A stretch of DNA of 64,000 bases from Polynucleobacter sp. JS-JIR-II-b4 (lineage in GTDB: Bacteria > Pseudomonadota > Gammaproteobacteria > Burkholderiales > Burkholderiaceae), in the NCBI RefSeq assembly GCF_018687815.1, contig NZ_CP061306.1:1736001-1800000 (forward strand), read 5' to 3'. Positions 21,439 through 58,127 of the stretch are shown piece by piece (position 1 is the stretch's first letter; every line of letters starts with the position of its first letter). The position numbers were made by a program, and so were the translations under genes. Below the pieces are notes generated by a model. The model saw only the letters and a list, made by a program, of their open reading frames with translations, made no database searches and was not told the origin of the DNA.

Positions 21439-22806
21439 ATGTCAAACATAACCGCTATTTCTTATCTCATTTCATCGGTGTTGTTCATCCTCGCTTTGCG
21501 TGGCTTGTCTTCACCAACTACTTCACGCCAAGGCAATACCTTCGGCATGATTGGTATGTTGTTAGCCGTTGTCACCACTTTCTTCATTCCTGATTTCAAA
21601 CCTGTCATCTCATTGATTGGTGTTGCAATTGTGGGTGGCGCGATTATTGGAACGATTGCCGCTAAACGCGTGCAAATGACCAAGATGCCTGAGTTGGTTG
21701 CTTTGATGCACTCCTTCGTAGGTTTGTCAGCTGTGTTAATTGCGATTGCTGCTGTATTTAATCCAGCGCATGACCATACTGGCGCGCAGAAGATTGAGCT
21801 CTTTATTGGCGCATTTATTGGTGCCATCACCTTTACCGCATCTGTCATTGCATTTGGTAAGTTATCCGGCAAAGTCAGTGGTAAGCCAGTTACTTTCGCT
21901 GGTCAACATTTGCTGAATTTGATTTTGGCTGTCTCAATGGTTGGTGCTGGTATTGCTTATTACATGGGTGATAGCCAGGCAGCTTTCTTGGCAATGTGTG
22001 CAGTTGCTTTGGTATTGGGCGTGACATTGATCATCCCTATCGGTGGCGCTGATATGCCAGTGGTTGTATCAATGCTGAACAGTTATTCTGGTTGGGCAGC
22101 GGCTGGCATTGGCTTCACCTTAAACAACCCAGTGTTGATTATTGCGGGTGCTTGCGTAGGCTCATCTGGTGCGATTCTGTCTTACATCATGTGTAAGGCG
22201 ATGAACCGTTCCATTCTGGCTGTTTTGCTCGGCGGCTTTGGCGCCGAAGCTGCTGCCGGCGGTGCTGATGATGGCGGCCCTAAGAATTACAAAACAGGTT
22301 CACCAGAAGATGCTGCCTTCCTTATGGAAAATGCTGATACCGTGATCATTGTTCCTGGATATGGCTTAGCAGTGGCTCGCGCTCAACATGCCCTCAAAGA
22401 ATTGACTGAAAAGTTGACTCATCATGGCGTGACGGTGAAGTACGCGATTCACCCAGTAGCAGGTCGTATGCCTGGTCATATGAACGTACTGTTGGCTGAA
22501 GCTGAAGTTCCATACGATCAAGTATTTGAGATGGAAGACATCAACAGCGACTTTGGTCAGGCTGACGTAGTGCTGGTACTTGGCGCTAACGACGTGGTTA
22601 ACCCAGCTGCACGCACTCCAGGTAGCCCAATTTTTGGTATGCCAATCTTGGAAGCATTTAAAGCCAAAACTATCATCGTGAACAAGCGCTCTATGGCAGC
22701 TGGTTATGCCGGCCTAGATAACGAGCTCTTCTATATGGATAAGACCATGATGGTCTTCGGTGATGCGAAGAAGGTGGTTGAAGAGATGGTTAAGGCTGTT
22801 GAATAA
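21439..22806 (+). CDS. pntB: NAD(P) transhydrogenase subunit beta
   Basis: Beta subunit (455 aa). An N-terminal membrane domain with about nine helices includes ALMHSFVGLSAVLI and ADMPVVVSMLNSYSGWAAAG. The C-terminal NADP(H)-binding domain III contains IIVPGYGLAVARAQHAL, YAIHPVAGRMPGHMNVLLAEA, VLVLGANDVVNPAARTPGSP and KRSMAAGYAGLDNELFY. All match the family. It closes the operon at a strong terminator. Confidence 0.96.
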   Translation: MSNITAISYLISSVLFILALRGLSSPTTSRQGNTFGMIGMLLAVVTTFFIPDFKPVISLIGVAIVGGAIIGTIAAKRVQMTKMPELVALMHSFVGLSAVLIAIAAVFNPAHDHTGAQKIELFIGAFIGAITFTASVIAFGKLSGKVSGKPVTFAGQHLLNLILAVSMVGAGIAYYMGDSQAAFLAMCAVALVLGVTLIIPIGGADMPVVVSMLNSYSGWAAAGIGFTLNNPVLIIAGACVGSSGAILSYIMCKAMNRSILAVLLGGFGAEAAAGGADDGGPKNYKTGSPEDAAFLMENADTVIIVPGYGLAVARAQHALKELTEKLTHHGVTVKYAIHPVAGRMPGHMNVLLAEAEVPYDQVFEMEDINSDFGQADVVLVLGANDVVNPAARTPGSPIFGMPILEAFKAKTIIVNKRSMAAGYAGLDNELFYMDKTMMVFGDAKKVVEEMVKAVE

Positions 22807-45022: not shown

Positions 45023-45502
45023 ATGAACAAACTAACTCATTTTGATGCCAGCGGGCAAGCCCACATGGTAAACGTTGGCGATAAACCCAATACCCACCGT
45101 ATAGCCGTTGCCACTGGCAAGATCACCATGCTTCCCGAGACCTTCAAAATGGTAGAGGCTGGTACCCACAAAAAGGGTGATGTTTTAGGAATCGCCAGAA
45201 TTGCAGGTATTCAGGCATCCAAAAGAACATCAGATCTCATTCCTCTATGCCATCCGCTGGCGCTAACTCACGTTAGCCTAGAGTTCCAAACCAATCCAAG
45301 TGAAAACAGTATTACCTGCCAAGTCAGAGCAGAAACCACCGGACCAACCGGTGTAGAAATGGAAGCGCTCACTGCAGTCCAAGTTGCCCTCCTCACAATT
45401 TATGACATGTGCAAAGCCGTAGACCGTGGCATGGTGATGGGGGATGTCAAACTACTCGAGAAAAGTGGCGGCAAAAGCGGGGAATGGGTTGCGGAGAAGT
45501 AA
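45023..45502 (+). CDS. moaC: Cyclic pyranopterin monophosphate synthase MoaC, 3' end replaced by the integrated element
   Basis: MoaC (159 aa) converts the MoaA product to cyclic pyranopterin monophosphate in molybdenum cofactor synthesis. Start ATG 45023 ([18 protein letters not shown]) aligns residue for residue with E. coli MoaC; upstream in-frame codons lie inside the protease gene. Catalytic Asp128 and Lys131 are in [36 protein letters not shown] is intact. Codons 118-155 are the 114-bp att repeat. The last four codons (Val-Ala-Glu-Lys) come from the element; the original tail Asn-Ala-Ala survives at 51962-51973. The protein should remain functional because the changed tail is beyond the conserved core. 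Confidence 0.95.
45374..45487 (+). repeat. attL: 114-bp direct repeat in the moaC 3' end
   Basis: Identical at every base to 51848-51961 and diverging on both sides (T versus C just before, G versus A just after). It is exactly 38 moaC codons, Ala118 to Trp155, including the catalytic Asp-Met-Cys-Lys. The core crossover point is somewhere inside and cannot be fixed from one sequence. Confidence 0.93.
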
Positions 45503-45544
45503 ACGCTAACCTGTAAAACAAAAGATAAGAAAAATAAAAAGCTA

Positions 45545-45564
45545 GGGCCCAATTCTGTCCCACT
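45545..45564 (+). repeat. Candidate integrase arm-type site next to attL
   Basis: GGGCCCAATTCTGTCCCACT, matching 17 of 20 bases with TGGCCCAATTTTGGCCCACT at 51747-51766 near attR, in the same orientation. The two lie just inside each end of the element, as arm sites for tyrosine integrases often do. It also lies just upstream of the integrase Shine-Dalgarno. Confidence 0.45.
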
Positions 45565-45578
45565 GAGGAGCAGAAAAC

Positions 45579-46562
45579 GTGGCAACACTACGCAAAAGAA
45601 GCAATGGACATTGGCAGGCACGAGTCCGCAAAGCAAATCAAAGCATCACAAAAACTTTTATTAATAAAGTCGATGCCGAACGCTGGGCAAAGCAAACTGA
45701 AGTTGAGATTGATAAAGGCAGTTTTATAAACGTCGGTCTAGCCGAACGTACAACCTTTGCCGAAATCATTGATCGTTACATCACAGAGGTATTACCAAAG
45801 ATGCGTGGGGGTGAGGCCGACTACATCCGTTTAAGGGCACTGGCAAGGCGTCCAATAGCTAAGCTGAATATGGTGGCACTAACCCCACAAAAGATAGCTC
45901 AACACAGGGATGAACGACTGCGAGAGATTGCACCAGCAACAGTCATCAGAGAGCTATCTTATTTTTCATCCATCATTACACATGCCCGCAAAGAATGGGG
46001 CATCAACATAAACAACCCGGTAGCACTGGTATCTAAACCTAAAAATCCACAAGGAAGAAGTCGCATACTTGATAATGCCGAAACTAACGCACTATTTGAA
46101 GCATTAAGACCAACTGGGCGGCGTTCGATATGGATGCTACCTTTGGTAAAACTAGCGCTTGAAACAGCAATGCGTAGAAGTGAATTACTGGGGCTGCGCT
46201 GGGAGCATATTGACCTTGGGCGGCGTACGATATTCCTTGAGCTAACTAAGAACGGCACAAGCAGAACTGTACCTTTATCAACCCATGCAATCCAAATACT
46301 TACCGAAATGCCACGTAACCTCGATGGAAGAGTTTTTCCAGTTACCCATGTAGTAGTGTCACAGGCATTTAACCGAGCCAGAAAACAAGCTGGGGTTAAA
46401 GATATACGCTTCCACGATTTAAGACACATGGCTATCACCAGACTTGCTGAAAAGCTGCCCAACCTAATTGAACTATCCGCAGTTTCGGGACATAAGAGCT
46501 TGGCCATGCTTAAAAGGTACTACCACCCAAATCCTAAGTTACTTGCAGAAAAGTTGGGTTAA
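45579..46562 (+). CDS. Tyrosine recombinase (phage-type integrase)
   Basis: 327 aa, GTG start with GAGGAG nearby. The N-terminal Arm-type fold KRSNGHWQARVRKANQSITKTF (read in parts, 5-28) is followed by a SAM-like core-binding domain (about 58-150) and the catalytic domain. The catalytic residues are visible: Arg in LETAMRRSELLGLRW, the beta-hairpin Lys in LTKNGTSRTVPLS, His-x-x-Arg in FHDLRHMAITR, His in SGHKSLAM and the nucleophile Tyr314 in MLKRYYHP. Complete, so probably active. It is next to attL, as usual for integrases acting on the adjacent site. Confidence 0.95.
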   Translation: MATLRKRSNGHWQARVRKANQSITKTFINKVDAERWAKQTEVEIDKGSFINVGLAERTTFAEIIDRYITEVLPKMRGGEADYIRLRALARRPIAKLNMVALTPQKIAQHRDERLREIAPATVIRELSYFSSIITHARKEWGININNPVALVSKPKNPQGRSRILDNAETNALFEALRPTGRRSIWMLPLVKLALETAMRRSELLGLRWEHIDLGRRTIFLELTKNGTSRTVPLSTHAIQILTEMPRNLDGRVFPVTHVVVSQAFNRARKQAGVKDIRFHDLRHMAITRLAEKLPNLIELSAVSGHKSLAMLKRYYHPNPKLLAEKLG

Positions 46563-46731
46563 AACAACAATAAACAGAATTTGGGCAAACTTTTATTTTT
46601 GCTTTTAAAATACATATGCTCACTAATTCAGCCTGACCTCCTAAAGTCCATGAACTGCCAGAATTAGTAGACGGGTTTTATATCGCCAAGCGATTCACAG
46701 CCGACAAACGCAGTACCAATTCATTAACCCG

Positions 46732-46785
46732 GATTGGAGTTTGTTGGTAAATCCCGGCAGCTCCAATCAACTAGGAGCTGTCATG
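46732..46785 (+). promoter_or_regulatory. Two mutually exclusive hairpins over the start of the 71-aa gene
   Basis: Segment A (46732-46741) pairs with segment B (46759-46768), a 10-bp stem with one G-U. Segment B's other part (46756-46764) pairs with segment C (46774-46782), a 9-bp stem with one G-U and a 9-nt loop. C contains the Shine-Dalgarno AGGAG and touches the ATG at 46783. A:B and B:C share bases, so forming A:B frees the ribosome binding site and B:C hides it. No protein gene is seen between the integrase stop and 46783 (221 bp). An open 37-codon stretch at 46637-46747 lacks a start codon. Confidence 0.6.
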
Positions 46786-46998
46786 GAAAAATTAATATCA
46801 CCTGTAATCAAAAATCAAAAACGAATTGAGCTCGTCTATCAGGCTGTCATATCGCTTGAAGCACAAACTTGGGGAATGCGTCATTCGCCAAACCCTCTTG
46901 AATCTGCTATTAATTTCCTTGAGGTAGTAGAAGAGGCAATTTATAAAAAATACCCAATCGATGCAGGATTTGAGCAAGGTGACGATAATGATCGCTGA
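46783..46998 (+). CDS. 71-aa protein of unknown function upstream of the replication gene
   Basis: Start ATG 46783 with AGGAG 5 nt upstream; a TTG 14 codons earlier is possible but has no ribosome binding site. The product (MEKLISPVIKNQKRIELVYQ...) is helical-looking and acidic at the end (FEQGDDNDR), with the middle SLEAQTWGMRHSPNPLESAINFLEVVEEAIYKK (read in parts). No family recognised. Its end overlaps the start of the rep gene by 11 nt, so the two are translationally coupled. It may be a replication accessory or a copy-control coupling peptide. Confidence 0.7.
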   Translation: MEKLISPVIKNQKRIELVYQAVISLEAQTWGMRHSPNPLESAINFLEVVEEAIYKKYPIDAGFEQGDDNDR

Positions 46999-48376
46999 AA
47001 ATACCCTGCTCTCCCACTTGGTGTGGGACACCGATAATCCCAATGCAAATATTTACAAAGTCTTAAGCGAAATAGATCCTGGGTGCTCCAGAAGCGAATG
47101 GATGCAAGTAGGCTTTGGTTGCATTGACCACCTAGGAGAATCCGCTCAATCGGCATTTTTTGACTGGTCACAAGGGTGCTTGCATGAAAAGTATGATTTT
47201 GGTAATTCACCCCCAACTAATTACAGCCGCAGTGAGCTTGAGAGTCAATGGAACGACTGGATAAAGCGCAAATACGAAGGTAGGTCGGGCATTACGTTTG
47301 GGACGGTGAAACATTTAGCCAAAAAACATAGCGGTAAACAAATTGGCTCATCCAGACCAACGGTCATAAATAGAAATTCTGGGGGCATAAGCGCCAAAGA
47401 TCTAGCAAATAAAACCTTTCCCCCATTGGTGTGGATTGTTAAGGACATACTCCCAGAGGGTTGCTATCTACTTTCAGCAAGGCCTAAGGTTGGGAAGTCT
47501 TGGCTTGCACTTCAATGCTGCCTAGCTGTTGCTTATGGGAGCAAAACACTTGATCGGGAAGTCGCCGCAGGAAAGGCAATCTACCTAGCGCTTGAGGACA
47601 ATCAAAGAAGGCTACAAAGTAGATTGAAAATCATGCGCCCTCAGGGATATGCAACAGACAACCTGATTCTTCATACCGAATGGCCAAAGCTAAATGATGG
47701 CGGTATAGAAGCGCTAGAAAAATTAATTTCCTCAGAGTCACCAAGGCTTGTTGTAATCGACACTCTAGCTAAAGTTCGCCCACCAATGGGCAGAAACTCA
47801 AACTTATACGAAGGCGACTATTCTGCAGTAGCGCCATTAACCACATTGGCAAATAAATATCGGTGTTGCATCTTAGTGGTCACCCATAATAGAAAGGGCA
47901 AATCCGATTCAGATGCGCTGGAACAGATTAGCGGGTCTCTTGGCCTATCTGGAGCCGTAGATGGAGCGCTTGTTATAGACGGAATTAGGTCAGACAAACA
48001 GTACAAGTTAAGCCTAATTGGTAGAGACATACCCAATGATGATGAACTGGCTATCAGCCGTCAAGAAAATGGCGAATGGAAGATTCTTGGGGAGGCGACA
48101 CAGATATTTATTAGCGCTGAAAGAAAGGAAATTACCGACGCCCTTCGACTCCACCCAGCAGGCCTAAAACCTAAAGAGATAGCTGATTTCCTTGGGAAAA
48201 AGCAACCAACCGTTCGCAAACTATTAAGCTCGATGGTAGTTGCTGGACAGATACAAAACTCTGGTGGTACTTATACATTAATAAGTGGTAACTCTAGTAA
48301 TAACGAGAAGATCGGTAACTCTGGTAACACCAGTAACTCAAGTAGCTTATTAGCATCAATAGATTGGGATAACTGA
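46988..48376 (+). CDS. Replication protein with PriCT-2 and RepA-like AAA domains
   Basis: 462 aa from ATG 46988 (AAGGTGA 6 nt upstream; an earlier in-frame ATG at 46961 lacks one). N-terminal PriCT-2 primase-associated domain: SEWMQVGFGCIDHLG, FFDWSQGCLHEKYD, WNDWIKRKY, ITFGTVKHLAKKHSG (about 25-115). RepA/AAA_25 ATPase follows: Walker A in LLSARPKVGKSWLALQCC (about 162-179), IYLALEDNQRRLQSRLK, Walker B LVVIDTLAKVRP, LVVTHNRKG. A C-terminal winged-HTH-like segment (ALRLHPAGLKPKEIADFLGKKQPTVRKLL, read in parts) and a Gly/Asn/Ser tail end it. No archaeo-eukaryotic primase catalytic domain is present. Probably opens the element's own origin. Confidence 0.88.
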   Translation: MIAENTLLSHLVWDTDNPNANIYKVLSEIDPGCSRSEWMQVGFGCIDHLGESAQSAFFDWSQGCLHEKYDFGNSPPTNYSRSELESQWNDWIKRKYEGRSGITFGTVKHLAKKHSGKQIGSSRPTVINRNSGGISAKDLANKTFPPLVWIVKDILPEGCYLLSARPKVGKSWLALQCCLAVAYGSKTLDREVAAGKAIYLALEDNQRRLQSRLKIMRPQGYATDNLILHTEWPKLNDGGIEALEKLISSESPRLVVIDTLAKVRPPMGRNSNLYEGDYSAVAPLTTLANKYRCCILVVTHNRKGKSDSDALEQISGSLGLSGAVDGALVIDGIRSDKQYKLSLIGRDIPNDDELAISRQENGEWKILGEATQIFISAERKEITDALRLHPAGLKPKEIADFLGKKQPTVRKLLSSMVVAGQIQNSGGTYTLISGNSSNNEKIGNSGNTSNSSSLLASIDWDN

Positions 48377-48440
48377 GTTACCGATGTTACCGATTTACAT
48401 AGGTATACCGCTTAGCAAATTAAAAGCTGATCGGTATACC
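48287..48440. other. Candidate replication origin: GGTAAC repeats plus a large hairpin
   Basis: Five copies of GGTAAC/GTTACC occur in 105 bp: 48287, 48314 and 48323 (forward) and 48377 and 48386 (reverse). The last two form a tandem GTTACCGAT GTTACCGAT (48377-48394), whose complement ATCGGTAAC is at 48311-48319. Next comes an inverted repeat GGTATACCG (48402-48410) / CGGTATACC (48432-48440), each half containing the palindrome GGTATACC, with a further TTAGC/GCTGA stem and an A/T loop. It straddles the 3' end of the rep gene, where satellites and small replicons often keep their origin. No T run follows, so it is not a simple terminator. Confidence 0.55.
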
Positions 48441-48471
48441 CCATAACCCCATCCCAGATACTGTCAAATTT

Positions 48472-48747
48472 ATGCCACTACCAGCAATCACAAAATATGG
48501 CGCCAAAAAATGCCAATGCAAAAGTAAGCGCACCGGGTTACCTTGTAAAAATCTAGCCGCTCACGGTTGTATTAGCTGCAGAATGCATGGCGCTCATAGA
48601 TCCAAAAATGTGCTCAAAGGCATAGAGCATCCAAACTATAAATACGGGCTAGATACTAAAGAGGCGAAAATCGAGAGAAAAAAGAAGTTTGCGGAGCTAA
48701 ATCAGATCGCCGCCAGTCTTGGCATTAATCTTCCAAATAAGAATTAA
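48472..48747 (+). CDS. Small Cys/His phage-type protein (HGG/NYKYG family)
   Basis: 91 aa. Cys/His pattern CQCKSKRTGLPCKNLAAHGCISCRMHG (split, residues 14-41) followed by HPNYKYGLDTKEA. This resembles the short proteins with 'C.A..K.G..C......G...C..HGG...G..N..KHG.YT' that are common in prophages and islands and may relate to terminase small subunits; function is unproven. The four Cys and the His could bind zinc. A basic Lys-rich helix follows (AKIERKKKFAELNQ). No strong Shine-Dalgarno. It converges on the cargo genes. Confidence 0.7.
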   Translation: MPLPAITKYGAKKCQCKSKRTGLPCKNLAAHGCISCRMHGAHRSKNVLKGIEHPNYKYGLDTKEAKIERKKKFAELNQIAASLGINLPNKN

Positions 48748-48778
48748 AGCGCCTCTAACGCATATTAGTAACACTGAA

Positions 48779-49285
48779 TCATCTACTACGCTCTTCAGCA
48801 TATCGACTACATCGCAGATACCACTCATATTTTCTTTGCGACATCTGTGACTGCACCCTTGAAATTGTGGCGTCAGCATTTTGCATCGCTCTATCAAGCT
48901 CGGGACTAGCTTTCTGCTTTACTCCATATTGCGACAGAATGGCTGCATCTCTCTGAGACTCAATTGCCAAAATTTTCCTATCAGCCTCATCATTAATTCT
49001 CAAAACACGCTCTTGCGCTAAAAACCGCTCGTAGTCTCTTCCTACTGCATACATTTGCCCTCGCCAAAACTCTCGCATCTCATCTCCGCTAAAAGTCTTC
49101 ATTCTCAACTGAAGCACCATTCCAATTGGCTGACATTTGCTATCAATTTGGAGCTCAACTTTATTCTTAATATAGTCTTCTCTGTCTGCTGCTTTTTGCT
49201 CCTCGGTTCTTCTATCAAGTCTTCTAGCATCCGCATTGGAGAGAAATAGCGCAGCCAAAAGAAAGAGTAATAAGCTGTTTTTCAT
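48779..49285 (-). CDS. Secreted coiled-coil protein, cargo of the element
   Basis: 168 aa. Signal peptide KNSLLLFLLAALFLSNADA, cut about residue 20. The mature part is highly charged and helical: DRRTEEQKAADREDYIKNKVE, then MREFWRGQMYAVGRDYERFLAQERVLRINDEADRKILAIESQRDAAIL (read in parts) and VQSQMSQRKYEWYLRCSRYAEE. Two Cys (about 52 and 160) may bridge. No family recognised. Last of three closely spaced genes (gaps of 3 and 5 nt with the two upstream). No hairpin terminator seen in the 31 nt before the convergent gene. Confidence 0.7.
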   Translation of the reverse strand: MKNSLLLFLLAALFLSNADARRLDRRTEEQKAADREDYIKNKVELQIDSKCQPIGMVLQLRMKTFSGDEMREFWRGQMYAVGRDYERFLAQERVLRINDEADRKILAIESQRDAAILSQYGVKQKASPELDRAMQNADATISRVQSQMSQRKYEWYLRCSRYAEERSR

Positions 49286-49290
49286 GGGGT

Positions 49291-49692
49291 TTATAGCTTT
49301 CTCATCGCCACCAATTCTTTAAACCAAGCTGGAAATTGCTCGGGCCTTACGCCTAACCTCTGAAACCCTTCCATCTCCGACACAAAATCGAGGGGTTTTC
49401 TATTTAAAAATGGGTATAAATCAACAGGACTAGGCTCAAATTTAATGCCCTTTATCCTGCGAACCATAGACTCCCAAGTGGTGTAATTTCTCTTGGGCTT
49501 TTCTTTAACTCCAAGATAGTTAAATTCGCTTAACAGCATTTGAGCGGCACACCTCTGACAGACCACCAAATCAGTAAGCATTTTATTTTTTGGAGGGAGG
49601 TTTCGAAAATCAATAGAGCTATATATAGGCTCGATATGCCCCTGATCACATTTGGGACACTCGTAAAGTTTGAATGAAGAAATTCTAGTCAC
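49291..49692 (-). CDS. Cys-x2-Cys zinc-ribbon-like protein, cargo of the element
   Basis: 133 aa from a GTG start, only 3 nt after the stop of the upstream gene. CPKCDQGHIEPIY (about 12-24) and VVCQRCAAQMLLSE (about 48-61) give two Cys-x2-Cys knuckles, as in a zinc ribbon. The rest contains TTWESMVRRIKGIKFEPSP and ends FPAWFKELVAMRKL. No signal peptide, so it is cytosolic although both neighbours are secreted. Not recognised; a nucleic-acid-binding or regulatory role is only a guess. Confidence 0.65.
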   Translation of the reverse strand: MTRISSFKLYECPKCDQGHIEPIYSSIDFRNLPPKNKMLTDLVVCQRCAAQMLLSEFNYLGVKEKPKRNYTTWESMVRRIKGIKFEPSPVDLYPFLNRKPLDFVSEMEGFQRLGVRPEQFPAWFKELVAMRKL

Positions 49693-49695
49693 AAT

Positions 49696-50355
49696 TTAAT
49701 CACACAAACCTAAGCGACTCATTCCGCTAGATAGCCCCTCTATTAAGGCATCGAATCTTGGGCGGACTCCAATTACACAATAGGATTTTTCGCGGAATTT
49801 ATTTATTTCATTTTGACAAGGAATGCTGCCATAGCCACTAGGGGGTATCCCCCCACCAGCAAAATATTCGGCACAATAAAATACGGCATCATAGTCAGCC
49901 GTATTAGCTGAGCACCACTTTCCCTTAATTCCCATACCAACCATAACCCCTGATATCCCGCCAGCGCTATTATTTTGAAAACTTATTTTTGGCGCTGCTC
50001 CATATTCCATTTTTATGTTCTTAAAATTTCCTATTAAGGCAGTAACCCTTGGTCTTGTCTGGCCAGCTAAAAACAGATTTCCAGATTTATCCTGTTCTGC
50101 ACTTATTCCACACCTAGTGCGTAGATCTTTTTTTATCTGATTTTCATTTTTTGAGGTTTTAGCTTCACTCTGATCGGGAAATTTCATATAACAGGCTTGC
50201 TGAATAGCATATGTTGCAGCCTCTCCTTCGGTACCCTTTAGCTTAGACAGGACACATTCTTCGTAATTAGATGGCCCAAAAATGCCAGCATGGGCACCAG
50301 AGAAAATACAAAATAAAAAAATAAGTATTACGAGGTGATAAAACTTTCTCTTCAT
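49696..50355 (-). CDS. Secreted cysteine-rich protein with a YEEC...ACYMKFP motif
   Basis: 219 aa. Signal peptide LVILIFLFCIFSGAHA (cut about residue 23). The mature N-terminus GIFGPSNYEECVLSKLKGTEGEAATYAIQQACYMKFP (read in parts, 24-60) matches a motif I have seen at the start of short exported proteobacterial proteins: Tyr-Glu-x-Cys, then about 20 residues, then Ala-Cys-x3-Phe-Pro. More Cys at about 83, 147, 158, 178, 191 and 218 suggest disulfides. Function unknown. First gene of the tight three-gene cargo unit; GAAGGG ribosome site upstream. Confidence 0.7.
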   Translation of the reverse strand: MKRKFYHLVILIFLFCIFSGAHAGIFGPSNYEECVLSKLKGTEGEAATYAIQQACYMKFPDQSEAKTSKNENQIKKDLRTRCGISAEQDKSGNLFLAGQTRPRVTALIGNFKNIKMEYGAAPKISFQNNSAGGISGVMVGMGIKGKWCSANTADYDAVFYCAEYFAGGGIPPSGYGSIPCQNEINKFREKSYCVIGVRPRFDALIEGLSSGMSRLGLCD

Positions 50356-50401
50356 CTTGAAACCCTTCTACATCAAAGGCTGGAAATTTAGTACAAGGTT
50401 T

Positions 50402-50779
50402 TCAGCGTCCATATAAGTTATTTATCTTTGCGGCAAAAGGATTAGCCTCAAATCTTATAGACCTCTCTTGAAACTCTTTTGATATTTCAGGCGCAAATTC
50501 TGAATTAATAACTGAATCCGAAGGTCTAAATTTTAGGAGCATTTTTCCTAGGGGGTGATCATTACTAACCATCATCATTTGAGTTGATGCAAATGAAAGC
50601 GTATGTTTTTGCTCATCTGATAATTTTGCTCCAGCTTTGCCAATTAGATTAATTACATGGTTTTCAGTGGCATTAGGATTTGACAAGCCCATTCCACGTT
50701 GTAAAAGACTTGCGCAACCGACCATAAATGCAAACTCCATATCCTTCCAGCTAATATCCTTCTTAAACAGCCCAAACAT
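50402..50779 (-). CDS. Unknown 125-aa cytosolic protein, cargo of the element
   Basis: Starts MFGLFKKDISWKDMEFAF with AAGGGA about 7 nt upstream. No signal peptide or TM segment; moderately helical (GKAGAKLSDEQKHTLSFASTQMMM). Ends EANPFAAKINNLYGR. No family recognised. It is separated by 46 nt from the downstream secreted gene and 60 nt from the upstream membrane gene, so it may have its own promoter. Confidence 0.65.
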   Translation of the reverse strand: MFGLFKKDISWKDMEFAFMVGCASLLQRGMGLSNPNATENHVINLIGKAGAKLSDEQKHTLSFASTQMMMVSNDHPLGKMLLKFRPSDSVINSEFAPEISKEFQERSIRFEANPFAAKINNLYGR

Positions 50780-50839
50780 ATATTTTCCCTTACTTAATTT
50801 AATCTAATCTTTATGAGCAAAAATTCCTAGTATTGGAAT

Positions 50840-51232
50840 TTAAATTAACTCATTTGAAGGCAATAGCCAGTCCCTGAAATTTCTTAAAAAATTTCCTAAT
50901 GCTGAAGATCCTAAAAAAACTGTATAGACTGCCAAAAAATATTGACTAATTATTCCGCCTTCGCTTTCAAAGAAAAACAATGCGCTATATATTAATAATA
51001 GAAAGCTAGCGCAAATAAAAATATGCATGTAGCTACGCACAAAATATCCACTCGTAAGGCCAAAAAAAACTAAGCCTACATTTAAAACCATGGTACTAGT
51101 CAGAAAATTCCAATAATTAGGCTTATCGCTTTCCAACGAAGGATCTAATATAAAAATCAACCCCACCCCAACTACAACAGCTATATTTGGTATAAATTTT
51201 TTCATTATTAATTTTTTAAATACATTACCCAT
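50840..51232 (-). CDS. Four-helix membrane protein, cargo of the element
   Basis: 130 aa with four hydrophobic segments: IPNIAVVVGVGLIFIL, TMVLNVGLVFFGLTSGYF, HIFICASFLLLIYSALFFF and IISQYFLAVYTVFLGSSAL. An alternative start at Met10 (51205) gives MKKFIPN; neither start has a clear ribosome site. A/T-rich codon use unlike the backbone. Function unknown. It is divergent from the XRE regulator and is the first gene of the minus-strand cargo block, so the regulator could control it. Confidence 0.65.
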   Translation of the reverse strand: MGNVFKKLIMKKFIPNIAVVVGVGLIFILDPSLESDKPNYWNFLTSTMVLNVGLVFFGLTSGYFVRSYMHIFICASFLLLIYSALFFFESEGGIISQYFLAVYTVFLGSSALGNFLRNFRDWLLPSNELI

Positions 51233-51317
51233 TTATTATGTTTAATGAAGCAGCCTTTTAAAGGCGCATTTTTAACAAAATTATGGGTATCATCTCCCGT
51301 GGTTTTAAATCCGTCAA

Positions 51318-51336
51318 TAGACAAATATCCTGTCTA
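51318..51336. promoter_or_regulatory. Operator-like inverted repeat at the XRE regulator start
   Basis: TAGACA (51318-51323), 7 nt, TGTCTA (51331-51336): a perfect 6-bp dyad whose last base is the A of the regulator's ATG. A site here could let the regulator block its own expression and perhaps that of the divergent cargo gene starting at 51232. The 103-bp divergent gap holds no other clear motif. Confidence 0.5.
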
Positions 51337-51581
51337 TGGCAAAACCTTCCCCAAGCTATAGTGGATCAAAGCAACTTATTGCCCTAGGCAAGGCCATCAG
51401 GGTATTTAGGCAGGGGAGCGGACTATCCCAAGAGGCATTAGCCAACGAAATTGGTATTGACCGTAGTTATATGGGTGGTATCGAGAGAGGCGAGCATAAC
51501 GTAGCCATCATGAATCTAAGCAAAATTGCCAAAACCCTCAAAATTAAGACATCGGAATTGCTGGTAGCAGCAGGCCTATAG
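51336..51581 (+). CDS. XRE-family HTH regulator of the element
   Basis: 81 aa. One HTH_3/Cro-C1 domain: LGKAIRVFRQGSGLSQEALANEIGIDRSYMGGIERGEHNVAIMNLSKIAKTLKIKTSELL (read in parts, residues 17-77), with the recognition region IDRSYMGGIERG. It is almost only the HTH domain, with no protease or peptide-binding part, so it is a small autonomous DNA binder. It lies next to attR at the opposite end from the integrase. A role in keeping the element quiescent is inferred from position and the dyad over its start. Confidence 0.9.
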   Translation: MAKPSPSYSGSKQLIALGKAIRVFRQGSGLSQEALANEIGIDRSYMGGIERGEHNVAIMNLSKIAKTLKIKTSELLVAAGL

Positions 51582-51746
51582 CCTAGAGTCAAATGCTTGA
51601 CACCACCCGATAGATTTTGTGATGTGGTTACAAAACTCTGATCTACCTAAACTAGAAGGCTTACCTGTACTTAGGTGGGTACGGGGTGGGTGGGGGTCCA
51701 ATCTTCCAATATGAAGAAGCAAAACCGCCTGTGATATTCTTTTCTG

Positions 51747-51766
51747 TGGCCCAATTTTGGCCCACT
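51747..51766 (+). repeat. Candidate integrase arm-type site next to attR
   Basis: TGGCCCAATTTTGGCCCACT, 17/20 identical to 45545-45564. The 266-bp stretch 51582-51847 holds no gene; besides this repeat it contains several A/T-rich tracts and a GGTGGGTACGGGGTGGGTGG G-rich run (51674-51693). Confidence 0.45.
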
Positions 51767-51847
51767 TGTTTATTTATTTAACCACACAGAGTTTGGTTCT
51801 TTAAGTTTTAATTTTCTTAGTTCGTTGTTTTTGCTGGGTTTTCCACC

Positions 51848-51973
51848 GCAGTCCAAGTTGCCCTCCTCACAATTTATGACATGTGCAAAGCCGTAGACCG
51901 TGGCATGGTGATGGGGGATGTCAAACTACTCGAGAAAAGTGGCGGCAAAAGCGGGGAATGGAATGCCGCCTGA
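51848..51973 (+). pseudogene. moaC: attR and displaced original 3' end of moaC
   Basis: Bases 51848-51961 are the second copy of the 114-bp repeat. The moaC frame then continues Asn-Ala-Ala and stops at 51971-51973. There is no start codon or ribosome site upstream, so this 41-codon remnant is not expressed as a protein. It is the tail that moaC had before integration, and the moaC terminator still lies just behind it. Confidence 0.92.
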
Positions 51974-51992: not shown

Positions 51993-52018
51993 AAAAGCCG
52001 CTTCTAAAGCGGCTTTTT
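51993..52018. terminator. Original moaC terminator, shared with pilA
   Basis: AAAGCCGC stem (51994-52001) with GCGGCTTT (52009-52016) and a T run. It is 20 nt after the displaced moaC stop and 11 nt from the pilin stop on the other strand. Active moaC is now about 6.5 kb away from it. Confidence 0.88.
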
Positions 52019-58050: not shown

Positions 58051-58127
58051 TGGTGGCGAATCAGGGATTTGAACCCCGGACCTGCGGATTATGATTCCGT
58101 CGCTCTAACCAGCTGAGCTAATTCGCC
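58051..58127 (-). tRNA. tRNA-Met (anticodon CAT)
   Basis: 77 nt including an encoded CCA. Acceptor GGCGAAT pairs with ATTCGCC, D arm GCTCAGCTGGTTAGAGC, anticodon loop ATCATAA with CAT at the centre, T arm GGGGTTCAAATCCC. The first acceptor pair is G-C, which argues against initiator tRNA. Elongator Met is favoured; a CAT anticodon could also be the lysidine-modified Ile2 tRNA, which sequence alone cannot rule out fully. Confidence 0.93.

Follow-up and report, generated by a model that had tools for sequence, protein, structure and literature searches.

The window analysed here, a stretch of 64,000 nucleotides of Polynucleobacter sp. JS-JIR-II-b4 (C1:1736001-1800000; genome 2.02 Mb), contains a 6.47-kb tyrosine-integrase element lodged in moaC, the gene for a core metabolic enzyme. 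Sequence comparison within the window revealed a direct repeat with 114 of 114 positions identical, a spacing of 6,474 and a possible extension to 123 nucleotides at 98% identity. The repeat comprises moaC codons 118-155 in coding register, its two copies bracket the element, and it is not a product of chance. The active gene encodes a protein that ends in ..EW-VAEK, whereas the displaced copy ends in ..EW-NAA-TGA, and the active MoaC is thus one residue longer. The integrase reading frame begins 76 bp past the moaC stop codon; no terminator was found between the two genes, only a weak fold, so transcription could possibly read through from moaC into the integrase gene. An integrase adjoining one attachment (att) site and direct att repeats within a target gene that remains complete are both present at the locus, which comprises the following features.

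45023 to 45502, + strand: moaC (start 45023), 159 amino acids; codons 1-128 probably chromosomal, tail completed at the left att site, attL (PF01967, E 7.6e-58)
45374 to 45487, + strand: attL identity block, moaC codons 118-155, exact repeat
45404 to 45423, + strand: core motif GACATGTGCAAAGCCGTAGA, with the probable crossover at the ATG of codon 129 (45407-45409)
45488 to 45502, + strand: element-typical final codons VAEK and stop, similar to the endings and 3' flank in other hosts' elements
45546 to 45564, + strand: candidate arm-type integrase site, left, GGCCCAATTCTGTCCCACT, which scores 28 when matched with its right-end counterpart, where 100 shuffles reach at most 24
45579 to 46562, + strand: tyrosine integrase, 327 amino acids, GTG start (PF00589, E 3.6e-29; phrog_1, E 2.2e-63)
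51748 to 51766, + strand: candidate arm-type integrase site, right, GGCCCAATTTTGGCCCACT, pairing with the left-end site
51848 to 51961, + strand: identity block of the right att site (attR), exact repeat
51878 to 51897, + strand: attR core motif, located by motif search
51962 to 51973, + strand: displaced native moaC end, NAA and stop, with a flank as in the empty sites of genomes G115 and G119
51993 to 52017, + strand: putative displaced native moaC terminator hairpin, by fold energy (-14.5 kcal/mol, z -6.7); not flagged by a simple terminator scan
22783 to 22802, + strand: the same core motif at the 3' end of pntB (21439-22806; NAD(P) transhydrogenase beta), an unoccupied sister-element site

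The most probable explanation by far is a gene-restoring integrative element that inserts in moaC and belongs to a family with a second branch in pntB. A sequence-only reading of this DNA had already described the repeat around an integrase segment, an element that targets the 3' end of moaC and completes the active gene with its own linked tail, an old tail and terminator displaced by 6.5 kb, and a MoaC lengthened by one residue; each of these points was borne out. It did not say where the crossover lies, that one branch of the family uses pntB, that insertions also occur off target or that the elements extend to other Betaproteobacteria, all of which are described below. The sole tRNA that ARAGORN reports in the window lies at 58051, far from the element, and a hidden tRNA target was rejected. 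A search of the host's own genome for a further integrase copy returned none of this element's family. The integrase residues R199, K224, H279, R282, H305 and Y314, which we take to be catalytic, are invariant across 13 aligned rows.

If the element inserted into an intact gene, relatives should retain empty sites, as the sequence-only reading had predicted. A moaC match is present in 176 of 186 Polynucleobacter genomes. We fetched the moaC regions of 75 of them, the window's included, in a sample that favours near relatives and element carriers and is not random, and measured the gap between moaC and pilA in 69. It is shorter than 200 bp in 20 (in one of these, G016, locus L065, moaC is broken, with matches in two frames and internal stops). 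In G115 and G119, with 97% MoaC identity, pilA lies about 59 bp past the moaC stop codon, which is an empty site, and the flank that follows the window's displaced tail, ATTCTCCAATTCAACAAT.., is nearly letter-identical in both. Tandem duplication or chance as the source of the repeat is ruled out by the 114 of 114 identity in coding register together with these empty sites.

Full-length relatives of the integrase (at least 53% identity) occur in 31 of the 186 genomes, the window's included. The gene stands directly after moaC in 16, directly after pntB in 14 and elsewhere in one (G073). A second gene tail follows downstream in 14 of the 16 moaC cases (the contigs of G180 and G147 stop short of it) and in 10 of the 14 pntB cases (the fetched contig ends early in the rest). 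We then examined 41 of the 80 genome loci returned for integrases outside or beside the genus, and found 20 at moaC, 7 at pntB and 14 at neither. Seven of these 27 moaC or pntB loci belong to genomes already counted, so that 17 moaC and 3 pntB loci are additional; among the moaC record titles are Methylotenera, Limnohabitans, Roseateles, Thiomonas and Bordetella ansorpii. Elements at the moaC site are thus found in 16 genomes of the genus, the window's included, and at 17 loci beyond it. Targets differ below about 47% integrase identity: locus L177 (49%) is still at moaC, L180 (also 49%) is not, and more distant relatives (36-38%) adjoin tRNA genes. The integrases of L183 and of IMG/VR locus L237 (45-50%) stand behind a short stretch, MALMITDECIN, which presumably resembles the start of a ferredoxin gene; the 5' end of a ferredoxin-like gene is perhaps a third protein-gene target. 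We also note signs of tandem elements in two genomes: an extra degenerate moaC tail inside the element of G125 (L106), and in G003 (L127) an attR behind which the left-end sequence of the element starts again and runs to the end of the contig.

The exceptional genome G073 (L104 and L105) helps to locate the crossover. Here a moaC-type element has landed far from moaC, where it splits a glycosylation-cluster gene, and it carries an orphan moaC tail. The gene is interrupted between ..TGTATGG and TATGGTTG.., and the two junctions, attL ..TGTATGGCTAAAGCG.. and attR ..GATATGGTTGATG.., have TATGG in common. An intact homologue (79%) crosses the junction in G023, and G073's own moaC site is empty. 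From this off-target insertion and the empty moaC we map the crossover, by comparison of sequences, to TATGG around MoaC codon 129. The regular sites point to the same place. attL and attR differ at the base preceding the ATG in moaC (G123 and G155) and in pntB (G161 and G012), and the nearest later difference in pntB is at +5 (G005), which suggests a crossover interval of ATGG(T) in the same register in both genes, assuming no later mutations. Two further observations concern glycosylation genes. The moaC-pilA gap of G023 (L034, 988-6435) holds tetratricopeptide repeat (TPR) and glycosyltransferase-like genes as well as the intact homologue of the split gene, with no integrase; and G030 (L066), in a second glycosylation island likewise far from moaC, carries three degenerate moaC tails, two of which retain a remnant of an integrase start.

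One 20-bp core, GANATGNNNAARGCNGTNGA, is present in both moaC and pntB, and its register is the same in the two genes. In the window's own genome this core has three matches (pntB, moaC and attR) and its reversed control none; across the genus the motif matches in 176 of 186 genomes, and the reversed control has 4 matches in 4 genomes. A third core-like place, GAAATGAAAAAAGC.., recurs in a few genomes. What is informative in this search is how rarely the motif occurs in other places and that it falls on the mapped crossover.

We next asked how the two targets are related, using a rooted tree of 57 integrases. In it all 17 pntB rows group together in a single clade (99/94, 200 of 200 bootstrap trees) nested among the moaC rows, and the same pattern is seen in a tree of the genus only. 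Integrase clade predicts target gene, and on this topology a single change of target, from moaC to pntB, suffices. Two caveats apply to the rooted tree: the outgroup does not form one side of a branch, and rows L096, L129, L194, L182 and L175 are long. Could a Campbell-type, RecA-dependent insertion of a replicon bearing a moaC fragment have produced the same picture, with the integrase a mere passenger? The perfect 114-bp homology would be expected, and nine duplications without a detectable integrase (see below) would fit. Such an insertion is hard to reconcile with an integrase directly after the target gene in 30 of 31 full-length cases (the off-target one follows the joined moaC tail), with one crossover register in two unrelated genes and the off-target gene, or with a target predicted by integrase clade, and we consider it very improbable.

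The origin of the restored tail was studied in 13 elements with both att sites, over the 81 bp from codon 129 on. Mismatches between attL and attR of the same host number 0 in nine elements, 1 in G125, 9 in G176, 10 in G135 and 16 in G155; in the 36 bp left of the core they number 0-1 in ten elements, 3 in G141, 5 in G155 and 6 in G123. Across different genomes, identity over the 84-bp attL tail averages 0.773 and reaches 0.929 at most, and the window's tail is closest to those of its near relatives (0.88-0.92). Similarity of attL tails tracks moaC codons 1-110 of the host (rho 0.46, 0 of 2,000 permutations), whereas it does not track the integrase (rho -0.03, p 0.56); the integrase itself follows host moaC weakly (rho 0.19, p 0.02) and sucD at rho 0.08 (p 0.20). 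The final codons and the 3' flank (..GAAGTAAACGCTAACCT..) are element-like across hosts.

The sequence-only reading took the tail block to be foreign throughout, a moaC end that the element had captured from a close relative and that insertion swaps in, and these comparisons bear on that proposal. It accords with the element-typical last codons and with G155, where the two tails differ at 16 of 81 positions. It is at odds with the nine of 13 tails that match their own host's without a mismatch, with the missing correlation between attL tails and integrase, and with the window tail's nearness to those of close relatives. We judge it unlikely for the block as a whole, in which 10 of 13 tails show 0-1 mismatches against their own host, and retain it for the very end: we take the lasting foreign part to be 3-4 codons long, and codons 156-159, with the stop and 3' flank, look element-borne. 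The shared block appears to be mostly host sequence on both sides, through gene conversion or through capture with later spread inside the species; the direction of homogenisation is not decided by comparing near relatives. Long identity might instead be merely recent, the element having come from a same-species donor that already bore this tail, with no need of gene conversion. Such a donor would likewise yield identical attL and attR, as in the nine mismatch-free elements, and the weak tracking of host moaC by the integrase fits too. Mosaic tails speak against it: G123 has 6 mismatches in 36 positions left of the crossover and G141 has 3, with none to the right in either, and in G135 and G176 the two sites agree through the left part and the core, with divergence setting in at about +45 and +20. 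So do element-typical ends that stand behind host-specific tails and share one 3' flank (KAEK in G131 and G176, VAEK in the window), and in any case each host species must at some point have supplied its tail. We take the recent-donor account seriously as a minority possibility.

Most moaC elements also carry paired end repeats, about 43 bp past the moaC stop codon and 110-134 bp before the attR core. Their letters vary among elements and agree within one element, and we propose them as candidate arm-type integrase sites.

Integration of the favoured, gene-restoring kind would proceed as follows. The element's own tyrosine integrase would recombine its attP with a chromosomal attB that lies within moaC, the exchange taking place at the ATG of codon 129, probably with the help of the candidate arm-type sites at both element ends. 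The left half-site would remain with host moaC and the element would provide codon 130 to the stop, so that MoaC is complete, and the host's original moaC end and terminator would come to lie 6.47 kb downstream at attR. The integrase family uses the 20-bp core found in moaC and pntB, and one branch has moved from the first gene to the second. The long shared tail may then be homogenised with the host copy by gene conversion, or a captured host tail may have spread within the species, and apart from the final codons the host would keep its own MoaC sequence. The joint proposal that the host keeps rewriting the coding part of the att site, that the core (D/E-M-x-K-A-V-D/E) sets the target and that a chance core in pntB allowed a single switch has, in our view, an even chance of being right.

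Several points weigh against this account. A second MoaC tail without a detectable integrase (no match to any of the 57 integrases at E 1e-3) is present in nine of the 75 genomes: G035, G032, G112, G069, G186, G208, G114, G089 and G100. This is the duplication in integrase-free relatives that the sequence-only reading had named as evidence against itself. It is likeliest that these are mostly decayed elements: G208 retains left-end sequence of the element, and no such trace was seen in G069 and G100. Element-like ends also follow moaC in genomes such as G133, G109 and again G208, where no integrase was detected, and integrase fragments occur with pntB tails (G104, G134 and G128) or with moaC (G014, G008, G203 and G178). 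In the remnant in G008, attL and attR differ inside the ATG itself (ATG versus ATA). Three of 13 elements (G176, G155 and G135) have the 9-16 tail mismatches given above. With sucD as the host marker (10 genomes) the host signal is weaker (attL rho 0.18, p 0.10; attR 0.26, p 0.012). The arm-type repeats exceed the maximum of 100 shuffles in just 9 of 13 moaC and 5 of 13 pntB elements. The core motif was derived from moaC and pntB, and its presence there is by construction. Finally, the architecture, the empty sites and the crossover interval in moaC, pntB and the off-target gene can be read directly from the aligned sequences, whereas we infer the activity of the element from sequence alone.

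Beyond the integrase, the element carries the following open reading frames (ORFs).

46741 to 46998, + strand: small ORF, common to the G131 element (best start perhaps 46783); no Pfam or PHROGs family
46961 to 48376, + strand: replication-type protein with PriCT_2 (6.2e-8) and AAA_25 (1.1e-27); phage primase/helicase families
48472 to 48747, + strand: 91-amino-acid Cys/His-rich ORF, with relatives in 9 of 23 elements; phrog_3678, unknown function
48779 to 49285, - strand: cargo ORF of no assigned function; no Pfam or PHROGs family; weak PADLOC match PDC-S02 (0.0025)
49291 to 49692, - strand: cargo ORF of no assigned function, with a relative in the G176 element
49696 to 50355, - strand: cargo ORF of no assigned function (ORF list, Pfam, PHROGs)
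50402 to 50779, - strand: cargo ORF of no assigned function, with a weak relative in G182
50840 to 51232, - strand: hydrophobic cargo ORF; no PHROGs family
51336 to 51581, + strand: helix-turn-helix (HTH) regulator (HTH_3, E 1.8e-11)

We compared 23 elements with core-to-core lengths of 3.5-13.7 kb. Only the integrase gene is common to all; replication-type proteins of several kinds and the Cys/His ORF recur, and some module families are common to moaC and pntB elements. Large cargo proteins were scanned, ten in Pfam and ten in PADLOC with eight in both, and domains found elsewhere include a TPR protein (G125), an autotransporter domain (G095) and transposase domains resembling those of insertion sequences (G158). 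Two moaC elements have restriction-like cargo, SRA-HNH in G009 (L052, 7950-8822) and MrcB_N-NOV_C in G062 (L109, 6341-7513). In the window, PADLOC returned for defence only the weak PDC-S02 match and HTH 'control protein' matches. The element could also be the remnant of a defective prophage or phage satellite and not autonomous, a reading compatible with gene-restoring integration and, in our estimate, not far short of an even chance. Integrase and replication module within a small element are a satellite-like trait, and the primase/helicase-like gene and a Cys/His ORF family near phage families point the same way. Set against this, PHROGs identified no virion structural genes among the window ORFs, and no moaC or pntB tail accompanies any of the 80 best IMG/VR relatives, whose identity is 50% or less. 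The window ORFs had no match to packaging-interference families in PHROGs or Pfam. A phage origin was rejected (best phage-record match 39%; best IMG/VR relatives 47-50%), and so was a plasmid origin (46.5% at best among the matches listed, with one further record counted at 60-80%).

The mechanism class is known. In Escherichia coli, e14 and phage 21 use a tyrosine integrase and a site inside icd, a conserved metabolic gene, near its 3' end, and supply a replacement end; the former end stays behind as a pseudogene at the other junction (163 bp for e14; PMC6379469), and identity blocks reach up to about 250 bp (PMC10111431). The element described here differs in gene, host class, integrase and cargo, in a tail that is host-like within each genome, and in a sister clade whose target is now another gene bearing this core. 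For the fis, hpt and late-gene integrases of phage-inducible chromosomal islands, too, clades that repeatedly use protein-gene targets are reported (PMC10111431); the helper-embedded type disrupts its target without replacement sequence, whereas the moaC element restores the gene. Islands in tRNA genes share the 3' end replacement and the attL/attR identity block, and distant relatives of this integrase lie beside tRNA genes; unlike theirs, the target here is a coding sequence, so the tail must hold the reading frame. In openly licensed full texts we did not find moaC as an integrase, attB or prophage target, although supplementary island tables (for example TIGER) may list it; in PMC5406005 it appears only as an operon gene. 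For pntB, no link to an integrase was seen in the openly licensed texts consulted; a table in PMC3091717 places it among genes bordering plastic regions of Photorhabdus and Xenorhabdus.

If the host does keep rewriting the tail, an element could enter a new species with a foreign tail and yet end up carrying the local, functional one. In MoaC, mobile elements lastingly edit the C-terminus of a core metabolic enzyme. The family offers a natural series for a change of integrase target, with two unrelated conserved genes, one core, the same register and a single switch. It also makes attB, attP and integrase sets available for Betaproteobacteria, and the ends of moaC and pntB are to be expected as insertion hotspots when these genomes are annotated.

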